Of a stretch of DNA of 33,222 nt, positions 20,302-33,046 are shown piece by piece. Location: positions 1-33,222 of the forward strand of contig JAIXVY010000512.1 in NCBI GenBank assembly GCA_027482505.1. Direction: 5' to 3'. The notes under the pieces were generated by a model. The model searched no databases. It was not told the origin of the DNA and saw only the letters and a list, made by a program, of their open reading frames with translations. Positions within the stretch are counted from its first letter, which is position 1. Each line of letters opens with the position of its first letter. A program made the position numbers and the translations under genes. The DNA is from Opitutaceae bacterium. Its GTDB lineage: Bacteria; Verrucomicrobiota; Verrucomicrobiia; Opitutales; Opitutaceae.

Positions 20302-21498
20302 ATGAGCTTTGATTTCACCACCGTTCCCGATCGCGCCGGCACCGATTCCCAGAAGTGGAAAAAATATGCCGGCAAAGACATCCTGCCGATGTGGGTGGCG
20401 GACATGGATTTTCGCTCTTCGCCAGCCATCCTGAAGGCGCTGCACGACCGTGTTGAGCACGGCGTCTTCGGCTACGCGCGCCCCACCCAGGCCACGGTCG
20501 ACGCGGTGGTGAACGCCTGCGCAGCGTGCTACGGCTGGACGATCGAAGCCGACTGGCTCGTGTGGCTGCCCGGGCTCGTCTGCGGCCTCAACGTCACCTC
20601 CCAGGCCTTCGCCCAGCCCGGCGAGGAGGTGCTCTGCCTCACGCCCGTCTACCCGCCCTTCATGACCGCGCCGAAAAACTCCGGCCGCGTGTCCGTGACC
20701 GTGCCCCTGACGCTGCGCGCGGGACCGACCGGCCGCGGCGACGGCGCCTGGGAGATCGACTGGGACGCGCTGGAGCGCGCCGTCACACCGAAGACGAGGC
20801 TGTTTTTCCTCTGCAACCCGCACAACCCGGTCGCGCGCGTTTTCCGTCGCGACGAACTCGCGCGGCTCGCGGAGTTTTGCGCGCGGCACAGCCTCATCCT
20901 TTGCTCGGACGAGATCCACTGCGACCTCATCCTCGACCCCGCGCTGCCCCACCTGCCGACCGCGCTCGTGGCGCCGGAGCACGCCGCCCGCACCGTCACG
21001 CTCATGGCCCCGAGCAAAACCTACAACGTCCCCGGTCTCGGCACCTCCTTCGCCATCATCCCCGACGCGGCCCTTCGCGCGCGTTTCGTCCGCGCCACCC
21101 ACGGCATCGTGGCCGAGGTTACCTGCCTCGGCTACTCCGCATGCGAGGCCGCCTATCGCGACAGCGAAGACTGGCGCCAGGGCCTGCTCGCCACCCTGCG
21201 CTCCCACGCCGCCCACCTCCAGGCCACCTTCGGCTCGGGCGTCTTTAAAAACGTGAAACTCGAGGCGCCGCTGGAGGCCACCTACCTCGCCTGGCTCAAC
21301 GTGTCCGCGCTCGGTCTCGAGGATCCGGTCGCTCACTTCGAAGAGCACGGCGTGGGCCTGAGCGACGGACGCTTTTTCAACGCGCAGCCCGGACACTACG
21401 TCCGGATAAATTTCGGCTGCCCGCGGGCCACGCTCGACGAGGGCCTGCGCCGCCTGGCCGCAGGCGTGGCCGCGGCCGAGGCTCGCCTCGCCCGCTAG
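20302..21498 (+). CDS. patB: MalY/PatB family PLP-dependent aminotransferase / cystathionine beta-lyase
   Basis: PMWVADMDFRSSPAILKALHDRVEHGVFGYARP; FFLCNPHNPVARVF; SDEIHCDLI; APSKTYNVPGLGTSFAIIP. Confidence 0.93.
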   Translation: MSFDFTTVPDRAGTDSQKWKKYAGKDILPMWVADMDFRSSPAILKALHDRVEHGVFGYARPTQATVDAVVNACAACYGWTIEADWLVWLPGLVCGLNVTSQAFAQPGEEVLCLTPVYPPFMTAPKNSGRVSVTVPLTLRAGPTGRGDGAWEIDWDALERAVTPKTRLFFLCNPHNPVARVFRRDELARLAEFCARHSLILCSDEIHCDLILDPALPHLPTALVAPEHAARTVTLMAPSKTYNVPGLGTSFAIIPDAALRARFVRATHGIVAEVTCLGYSACEAAYRDSEDWRQGLLATLRSHAAHLQATFGSGVFKNVKLEAPLEATYLAWLNVSALGLEDPVAHFEEHGVGLSDGRFFNAQPGHYVRINFGCPRATLDEGLRRLAAGVAAAEARLAR

Positions 21499-21572: not shown

Positions 21573-21601
21573 GGCCGTGTAACCTATTGGGTTACACGGC
21601 C
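21573..21601. promoter_or_regulatory. 29-bp palindrome GGCCGTGTAACC-TATTG-GGTTACACGGCC (candidate operator / left inverted repeat)
   Basis: Perfect 12-bp arms with 5-nt spacer. Positions 21573-21597 are the exact reverse complement of 22117-22141. Confidence 0.75.
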
Positions 21602-21635
21602 AGCCCCACGTTGCCGCATGGGGCGCACCGAGGCT

Positions 21636-21652
21636 TGAACCTCTGCGGTTCA
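21636..21652. promoter_or_regulatory. Palindrome TGAACC-TCTGC-GGTTCA (candidate second operator)
   Basis: 6-bp arms, 5-nt spacer; shares the AACC-N5-GGTT core with the flanking palindromes; ends ~20 bp before the ATG at 21672. Confidence 0.5.
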
Positions 21653-21671
21653 TCGGGTTGCGTCCATACCC

Positions 21672-22130
21672 ATGGGCTCCCCCCAGATCGTGCCTGATCT
21701 TCCGCCGAGCGCCGCCCGCATCGCCGATTTGATCGGCCTGCTCGGCGTGGCGGCCGAAAACGCCGCTCGCGCCGCCGGTCGGGCCACTTTTCGCGCCATC
21801 GACCAACGTGCCAAAGGCAAACGGCTGCCCGACGCCGCCTCCCTCGGGGCGGCGGACGCGCCCCGGCCGACGCCGCTCTGGAACGTATTCGCCGCCGAGC
21901 TTGATCGAGCGCTGAAAAAACCCGGCTCGCGCGCGCGACTCGCGCGCTACCTCGGCATGCCCCGCCAGCGAATCACCGACTTTACCAAAGGCAGGCGCTT
22001 GCCCGACGCGGAAACCACCCTGCGCCTCCTGCACTGGCTCGCGGCCGTCGAGGCGGGGCGAGACCCCTCCTACCTCGTCCAGCCGCCCCTCCCCGAAGCG
22101 ACCTCTTCATCGGAAAGTGTAACCCAATAG
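21672..22130 (+). CDS. XRE-like helix-turn-helix protein
   Basis: SRARLARYLGMPRQRITDFTKGRRLPDAETTLRLLHWLA is HTH-like; N-terminal half carries a related segment FRAIDQRAKGKRLPDAASLGAAD. Bounded by inverted repeats; stop TAG is inside the right palindrome. Confidence 0.75.
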   Translation: MGSPQIVPDLPPSAARIADLIGLLGVAAENAARAAGRATFRAIDQRAKGKRLPDAASLGAADAPRPTPLWNVFAAELDRALKKPGSRARLARYLGMPRQRITDFTKGRRLPDAETTLRLLHWLAAVEAGRDPSYLVQPPLPEATSSSESVTQ

Positions 22131-22141
22131 GTTACACGGCC
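22117..22141. promoter_or_regulatory. Palindrome GTGTAACC-CAATA-GGTTACAC + GGCC (right inverted repeat)
   Basis: 8-bp arms, 5-nt spacer; exact reverse complement of 21573-21597 over 25 bp. Confidence 0.75.
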
Positions 22142-22793: not shown

Positions 22794-22903
22794 TTCGGCA
22801 ACCTAGCCGCCCGGCCCCGGCGCGCAACCCTCCCGCCGCACCTCGCCGGCGCGCAAGGCCCTTGCCGCGCGCCCCGCCTCCCCCTTGCCTGCTCGCCCAC
22901 GCC

Positions 22904-24013
22904 ATGCGCCTCGGACCGCTCACGCTTTCGTCCAACCTGTTCCTGTCTCCGCTCGCCGGATACACGAATCTGTCCATGCGCCTCACCGTGCGCGAGCTGG
23001 GCGGCCTGGGCTTCGCCACGACCGACCTCGTCAACGCCCGCTCCCTCATCGAGCGCAACCCGACCGCCCTCAAGCTCGTGGCCACCGCTCCCGGCGACCG
23101 CCCGTGGGCGGTGCAGCTCTTCGGCGCCGTGCCGGAGGAGATGCGCGACGCCGCCGTGATCTGCCAGGAGCTCGGCGCCGACGCGGTCGACATCAACATG
23201 GGCTGCCCGGTGAAAAAAGTCGTCAAGATCGGCGGCGGCTCGGCCATGATGACCGAGCTCGACAAGACCGCGGCCCTCGTGCGCGGCATGATCGCCGCGG
23301 TGAAGATCCCCGTGACCGCCAAGATGCGCCTCGGCTGGGACGAGCAAAACCTCACCGCGCCCGACCTCGCGCGCGTGCTCGAGGACGCCGGCGTGGCCGC
23401 GGTCTTCGTGCACGGCCGCACCCGCGCCCAGGGGTTTTCCGGCCAGGTAAACCTCGCCGGCATCCGCTCCGTCGTGCAGGCGGTGAAAACCATCCCCGTG
23501 ATCGGCAACGGCGACGTCACCACGCCCGAGGCCGCCCGCCACATGATCGCCGAGACCGGCTGCACGGGCGTGAGCATAGGCCGCGGCGCCTTCTACGACC
23601 CGTGGATCTTCAAGCGCACCGACCACCTCCTGCGCACGGGAGAACTCCTGCCCGAGGCGACGTTCGAGGAGCGCGTGCGCGTCATGAGCCGGCACTTCGG
23701 GCGCTACGTCGAGTTCTACGGCGAGGCGCACGGCGCGCGGCTGTTCCGGCGCGTGGCGCCCTGGTATGCGCGGCGCTTCGGACCCTCGAAACCCTTCAAG
23801 CAGGCGATCCTCGGCATCGCCTCGGCGGCGGATTTCGAAAAGGCGCTGGCCGACTATGTCGCCTGGCGCGCGCGCTTCTGCGGCGAGGACGGCGATTTGC
23901 TGCCGAAATACCGGCCCGACCCGATGGTCGCCTCCTTCATGCGCGACCCGGACGACCCCGTGTTCGCGCGCGAATCCATCCCCGTGCCCAAGGGGCCGGT
24001 CGAGAACTGGTGA
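22904..24013 (+). CDS. dusB: tRNA-dihydrouridine synthase (DusB-like)
   Basis: LSPLAGYTNLSMR, VQLFGAV, GADAVDINMGCPVKKVVKIGGGSAMM, VTAKMRLGWD, VHGRTRAQGFSG, VIGNGDVTTPEAA, GCTGVSIGRGAFYDPWIF. Confidence 0.93.
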   Translation: MRLGPLTLSSNLFLSPLAGYTNLSMRLTVRELGGLGFATTDLVNARSLIERNPTALKLVATAPGDRPWAVQLFGAVPEEMRDAAVICQELGADAVDINMGCPVKKVVKIGGGSAMMTELDKTAALVRGMIAAVKIPVTAKMRLGWDEQNLTAPDLARVLEDAGVAAVFVHGRTRAQGFSGQVNLAGIRSVVQAVKTIPVIGNGDVTTPEAARHMIAETGCTGVSIGRGAFYDPWIFKRTDHLLRTGELLPEATFEERVRVMSRHFGRYVEFYGEAHGARLFRRVAPWYARRFGPSKPFKQAILGIASAADFEKALADYVAWRARFCGEDGDLLPKYRPDPMVASFMRDPDDPVFARESIPVPKGPVENW

Positions 24014-32089: not shown

Positions 32090-33046
32090 GTGCCGTCCGA
32101 CGCACATCCTCCTCTGGTTGACGTCCTGTGCGTCGGCCTCGTGTGCGTGGACATCGTTCTCTCCGTTCCGCATCACCCCGCGACCGACGAAAAACTCCGA
32201 GCCACCTCGCGCCTCGTCGCCCCCGGAGGCCCGGCCGCCGTCGCCTCCGCGCAGGTGGCGCGCCTCGGCGGCCGCGCCGCCTTCGCCGGCTTGCTGGGCG
32301 ATCCAGCCCGCGATCCCTTCGCTCCGCTCCTCCGCGCCGCGTTCTCCGCCGCCGGCGTCGAGACCTCCGCGCTGCTCGCCGCCCCCGGCCACGAGACCCC
32401 GCTGGCCGCCATCCTCGTCAAACCCGACGCCTCCCGCGCCGTCGTCTCTCACCGCCCCGCCGCCCGATCCGTCTGTCAATCAATGATTGACGAATTCCGA
32501 TTGAGCCAACCGGCATTTCCGCCCGCGCGGGTCGTGCTCGCCGACGGCCACCGGCCGGAGTGGAACGACACTCTCGCAGGCCACGCGCGAGCCCAGGGCG
32601 CGCCGCTGGTCCTTGATGCCGGCTCTTGGAGCGACTCCGTCCGCGCCCTCGCCCCCCTCGCCGATCACCTCGTGGCCTCGGAGGCCTGCGCCCGCGACGC
32701 CCTGGGCGGGGCCGACCCCGCCGCGGCGAAACCCGCCGCCCTGCGCCGCGCCCTGCTCGCCCGCGACGACGCCTTTGTCGTCGTCACCCTGGGCCCGCGC
32801 GGCCTCGTCTGGAGCTCGCCCTCGGAGGCCGGCGCCCTGCCCGCCTTTTGTATCAACTCGTTGGATACCACCGGCGCGGGCGACGCCTTTCACGGCGCCT
32901 ACGCGCTTGGGCTGGCCCGCGGCCTGCACGCGCAAGACCGCCTCCGCCTCGCGTCGGCCGCCGGAGCGCTCGCCTGCACCCGCGCGGGAGCCTGGACGGC
33001 CCTGGCAGACGCGGCCGAGATCGACGCCCTGCTCGCCTTGCCCTGA
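32090..33046 (+). CDS. PfkB/ribokinase family sugar kinase
   Basis: VDVLCVGLVCVDIVLSVP, APGGPAAVASAQVARLGGRAAFAGLLGDP, VVVTLGPRGLVW, SLDTTGAGDAFHGAYALGLARG (PfkB signature 2). GTG start. Confidence 0.93.
   Translation: MPSDAHPPLVDVLCVGLVCVDIVLSVPHHPATDEKLRATSRLVAPGGPAAVASAQVARLGGRAAFAGLLGDPARDPFAPLLRAAFSAAGVETSALLAAPGHETPLAAILVKPDASRAVVSHRPAARSVCQSMIDEFRLSQPAFPPARVVLADGHRPEWNDTLAGHARAQGAPLVLDAGSWSDSVRALAPLADHLVASEACARDALGGADPAAAKPAALRRALLARDDAFVVVTLGPRGLVWSSPSEAGALPAFCINSLDTTGAGDAFHGAYALGLARGLHAQDRLRLASAAGALACTRAGAWTALADAAEIDALLALP

Follow-up and report, generated by a model that had tools for sequence, protein, structure and literature searches.

In REP/RAYT systems, a single-copy gene is flanked by palindromes that are dispersed over the genome, gene and repeat coevolve, and the repeat copies lie mostly in intergenic DNA, between unidirectional or convergent genes, and occasionally within genes (PMC2817692, PMC3733652). 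Rickettsia palindromic elements (RPE) and CGTC-tagged REPs comprise in-frame palindromes within genes for which no associated transposase is known (PMC10969869, PMC3733652), and RPE have no known partner gene (PMC10969869). O. terrae has been reported to be rich in GTAG REPs, a kind distinct from the palindromes described here, and a literature search found no description of these Opitutaceae repeats or of the system to which they belong.

We analyzed a 33,222-nt stretch of Opitutaceae DNA (the window), in which an HTH gene stands between two palindromes; the whole unit has patB (20302-21498) on one side and a DCC-type gene/dus (22862-24013) on the other. Its features, together with a palindrome of a second family further downstream, are as follows.

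21573..21601, plus strand: upstream palindrome, with its core GTGTAACC-TATTG-GGTTACAC at 21577-21597 and GGCC extensions that produce 12-bp perfect arms
21672..22130, plus strand: single-copy gene whose 152-aa product is a predicted XRE/HTH_3-like DNA-binding protein
22117..22141, minus strand: downstream palindrome GTGTAACC-CAATA-GGTTACAC, core 22117-22137, an exact inverted copy of the upstream palindrome
32474..32492, no strand assigned: second-family palindrome TGTCAATCAATGATTGACG, in frame within a PfkB-family kinase gene (32147-33046)

The first-pass annotation had described exact 25-bp inverted repeats, themselves palindromes, around the HTH gene, and this was borne out: the repeat at 21573-21597 (GGCCGTGTAACCTATTGGGTTACAC) returns as its exact reverse complement at 22117-22141, with one copy of each in the window and 0 matches expected by chance (100 shuffles). 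Both copies are palindromes whose core arms measure 8 bp, extending to 12 perfect pairs in the left copy, and their core is the 21-bp palindrome GTGTAACC-N5-GGTTACAC. The HTH gene ends inside the right-hand palindrome, which contains its stop codon. The open reading frame itself (21672-22130) is real, as had been proposed, since its homologues are under purifying selection (dN/dS 0.12-0.16). We again saw no target-site duplication at the unit, an Rfam scan of the window gave 0 matches, and a sigma-70-type promoter scan of the unit, which is not informative for the host's phylum, found none.

A scan of GTDB genomes yielded 80 HTH homologue loci, nearly all from Opitutaceae/Opitutia. Matching 21-bp palindromes occur on both sides of 58 of these 80 homologues, compared to 0 of 116 neighboring genes, confirming that other copies are paired around HTH homologues. 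Within the genus set, palindromes likewise flank most HTH homologues, each genome having its own version. The earlier argument that the ends form a true inverted copy, unlike operators, does not hold in general: of 52 homologous units, 30 have opposite center bases at their two ends and 22 have identical ones (p=0.33), so end orientation is not a rule. Across 61 family genomes, the median palindrome number is 21 with the HTH gene and 0 without it (Mann-Whitney p=2e-8, Spearman 0.72, both uncorrected for shared ancestry). Of 34 genomes in which no HTH gene was detected, 6 have at least five palindromes, which has to be explained by loss or by missed genes. A second palindrome, AGTCAATCAWTGATTGACT, has 29, 8, 12 and 13 copies in the four genus genomes that carry a second HTH subfamily, and was not found in the other eleven genus genomes, which lack that subfamily.

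A genome-wide site search detected about 40 copies of GTGTAACC-N5-GGTTACAC in the host genome (G000, a 4.28-Mb, 79%-complete MAG), so the repeat extends well beyond the unit. With ≤1 mismatch there were 35 matches against 0 for a reversed-pattern control, and with ≤3 mismatches 43 against 4. All but one of 41 sites are intergenic (40/41), in examined DNA that a simple codon-model gene caller scored as 85% coding. The spacer is nearly constant within a genome (TATTG at 27/31 sites in the host) and varies among genomes (AATTT at 20/21 in G004 and 17/17 in G007). In G000, G004 and G007, the sequences flanking the core are mutually complementary to a degree well beyond that of shuffled sequence, with compensatory flank changes between orthologous sites of G004 and G007, and no complementary extension was found in G047; what the copies share is thus the 21-bp core, with or without a longer hairpin around it. 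At three loci (L024:2052-2106, L029:1306-1348, L252:1530-1620) we observed perfect palindromes with arms of up to 29 bp around the 21-bp core, the outer part being locus-specific. Spaced copies were also seen: three at 270-bp spacing with similar flanks at L210 (G047:C1:2022720, 2022990, 2023261), and several pairs 110–190 bp apart in another genome (L211-L214), possibly representing composite elements. Palindrome pairs about 110 bp apart in G047 likewise have the appearance of composite cassettes.

The HTH gene is single copy in the host genome, with a distant paralogue (40% identity) on another contig. Its product matches HTH_3 weakly (E=4.5e-4; 20.7 bits against a Pfam cut-off of 23), and 19 of 20 family members weakly matched YdaS. 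In the AlphaFold model, the HTH helices span residues 68-127, with a predicted recognition helix at residues 98-105, and a long N-terminal helix (12-47) lies beside the HTH domain. Neither family searches nor the model revealed a catalytic domain or motif of a nuclease or transposase, and the viral contigs searched contained no relative of the protein.

Across 59 non-redundant protein–palindrome pairs, the residues most informative on the half-site are 84, 97-100, 103 and 109, which correspond to the predicted recognition helix and its surroundings, and residues 109/100/98/84 covary with half-site bases d3/d4/d8/d10. Of 20 proteins whose site has C at d3, 18 carry R109, and none does where d3 is G or T; at all 6 sites with A at d4, T or Q stands in place of R100, and at 4 of 6 sites with T at d8, P stands in place of R98. 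Nearest-pair contrasts were uniformly concordant (concordant:discordant 15:0 for R109/d3=C, 6:0 for R100/d4 and 4:0 for R98/d8). These measures partly share ancestry, and the switches recur on the tree, with 5–6 changes for R109/d3. The window protein has R109, R100 and R98 together with the matching site, and G047, which is outside the 59-pair set, obeys the code at d3. Because the palindrome is lineage-specific and the recognition residues switch alongside it, protein and palindrome belong together as cognate partners, much as RAYT and REP do. This coevolution strongly supports the suggestion of the first-pass annotation that the protein binds its own ends, and we strongly infer from the paired sequences that it recognizes its palindrome, presumably as a symmetric dimer.

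The patB-DCC-dus neighborhood is conserved within the genus and offers orthologous loci that lack the unit, as the same annotation had envisaged: it is absent from this locus in G001, G002, G003, G009, G011 and G014, occupies the DCC–dus interval in other genomes, and lies between patB and DCC in the window. On G008 contigs C35 (L019) and C394 (L032), dus is adjoined by HTH units that differ in palindrome specificity, which suggests either a favored site or an in-place change of specificity; contig C394 may reflect bin contamination.

Some palindromes also reside within genes. A GH20-like gene (L244:765-2975; orthologues L260, L264, L266, L268 and L272) has two hypervariable loops that carry in-frame palindromes, of families that differ by species (G004/G007, G006, G013, G008, G000), and G002, G005, G009, G011 and G014 have short loops without palindromes, constituting empty alleles. 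Further short repeats of neither family were noted in the loops at L270/L272 (GTTTCAAGTTTCAAG in G001; GTCGAG-rich in G013). In the window, the in-frame second-family copy in the PfkB-family carbohydrate kinase gene encodes the peptide RSVCQSMIDEF. We resolved no exact insertion boundary or target-site duplication; the available relatives are 75–90% identical, which blurs empty sites at the base level.

We consider it likely, with a probability of roughly two in three, that a REP-like family of dispersed palindromes has the HTH unit as its 'master' locus. An XRE-type HTH protein, encoded between two 21-bp palindromes, would bind that palindrome, and solitary copies would scatter into intergenic DNA and, in frame, into some genes, inserting with the protein's help. 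Because the protein has no recognizable nuclease or transposase domain, the copying itself would have to be done by an enzyme acting in trans, from the host or elsewhere, that the bound palindrome may recruit or guide. The flanking arrangement, the genome-wide copies, the cognate pairing and the presence or absence at conserved loci can be read directly from the genomes compared, and dispersal of the palindromes is supported; that the HTH protein aids their spread is a less certain deduction, and the copying step would be the work of the putative recruited enzyme. The first-pass annotation had also proposed a transposase-less mobile unit, which stands insofar as a conserved locus has the unit in some genomes and lacks it in others and palindromes are dispersed, and falls insofar as the 569-bp cassette is not multi-copy: the spreading part is mainly the solitary palindrome rather than the whole cassette. 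Against the master-locus reading are the missing catalytic domain, the lack of a resolved boundary, the palindromes of genomes with no detected HTH gene, the incompleteness of the host MAG, the partly shared ancestry of the coevolution measures, and the conserved position of some sites in G004 and G007, as would be seen in a regulon.

The main rival, which we judge unlikely, is an autoregulated transcription factor with a large regulon, for which the flanking palindromes would be 5′ and 3′ operators and the scattered ones target operators. An XRE-type fold together with symmetric 21-bp sites, coevolution of protein and site, the many family members whose upstream site lies immediately 5′ of the start codon, and the position of some sites being conserved between G004 and G007 are all consistent with such a factor, but where the sites lie, the palindromes within genes and the copy at the 3′ side tell against it. 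Host sites lie between 11 convergent and 4 divergent gene pairs and so show no promoter bias, palindromes are inserted in frame within coding sequence, and the copy 3′ of the gene is near-constant. Spacers are uniform within each genome and replaced wholesale between genomes, the locus-specific complementary flanks past the core in G000, G004 and G007 are superfluous for an operator, and sister species do without the gene.

It is improbable that the protein organizes the chromosome or nucleoid through dispersed sites, acting like MatP/matS, Noc or SlmA. A dedicated DNA-binding protein with 20–100 intergenic palindromic sites per genome, scattered in G047 over a 6.1-Mb chromosome, would suit this role, but the G047 matches listed exhibit no strong regional clustering. 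Also against it are the patchy presence, the speed at which specificity changes, the copies inside genes, the several paralogues that each have their own site family within one genome, and a unit that some genomes have and others lack at one locus. Improbable, too, is a true REP family moved in trans by a RAYT/IS200-type Y1 transposase, with the HTH gene a repressor or hitchhiker. The distribution is REP-like and Y1 transposases were found in 52 of the 61 family genomes, but their presence is not associated with palindrome number in those genomes (p=1), and no Y1 was found in G000, G044, G050 and G073 despite 38, 20, 8 and 35 palindrome copies. PF01797 was not found in the host genome, none of 68 copies in three genomes has a GTAG/GTGG/CGTC tag beside the palindrome, and the gene that the palindromes flank is the HTH gene; with none found in the host, no association with copy number and no tags, we rejected a Y1 transposase as the palindrome's partner. 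Chance, whether an ordinary repeat that landed to either side of an HTH gene unrelated to it or hairpins serving as intrinsic terminators, is very improbable and refuted as a general explanation, because the excess of flanked homologues over flanked neighboring genes, the cognate pairing of each subfamily and the residue–base coevolution rule out coincidence, and because terminators alone were rejected: some host copies are terminator-like, with complementary flanks and T-runs, but many have no T-run or extension and G047 has no extension at all.

Collectively, our results point to a previously undescribed type of repeat, scattered and probably mobile, that is run by a DNA-binding protein and not by a known transposase. 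Whether the master locus heads a self-spreading class of palindromes, with a dedicated transposase-free HTH protein, a coevolving recognition helix, an Opitutaceae-wide range and in-frame insertion into proteins, we regard as evenly balanced. Transposase-less short dispersed palindromes such as RPE and CGTC REPs had no known partner gene, and one such class now gains one. About 60 natural protein–site pairs can serve directly as a recognition code for an HTH fold, and the multiplication of a repeat with only its own DNA-binding protein becomes testable.

Among known systems, a classical transposon or insertion sequence is a multi-copy unit with a transposase and a target-site duplication; here the genome has a single HTH unit, with no catalytic domain and no target-site duplication seen. 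XRE/Cro-like autoregulators (HTH_3, YdaS, restriction-modification C-proteins) share the predicted fold of residues 68-127 and a symmetric palindromic site, but our system has sites on both sides of the gene, dozens more dispersed away from promoters, and a long N-terminal helix in the protein. REP/RAYT systems (REPtrons) resemble it in having a single-copy gene flanked by dispersed palindromes, cognate pairing, mostly intergenic copies with a few intragenic ones, and a repeat number that follows presence of the cognate gene, which here is the HTH gene and not Y1. They differ in that their gene encodes a Y1/HUH (PF01797) transposase whereas ours is XRE-like, and in the GTAG/GTGG tag that our copies lack; the core here is 21 bp and copy numbers are in the tens. 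With the Y1 transposase and GTAG tag, both defining, missing, we do not file the Opitutaceae system as a REP/RAYT member. RPE and CGTC REPs share its in-frame palindromes within genes, represented here by the GH20-like loops and the PfkB gene of the window, and the Opitutaceae palindromes are set apart from them by another sequence, without a CGTC tag, and by the dedicated DNA-binding gene that accompanies them.
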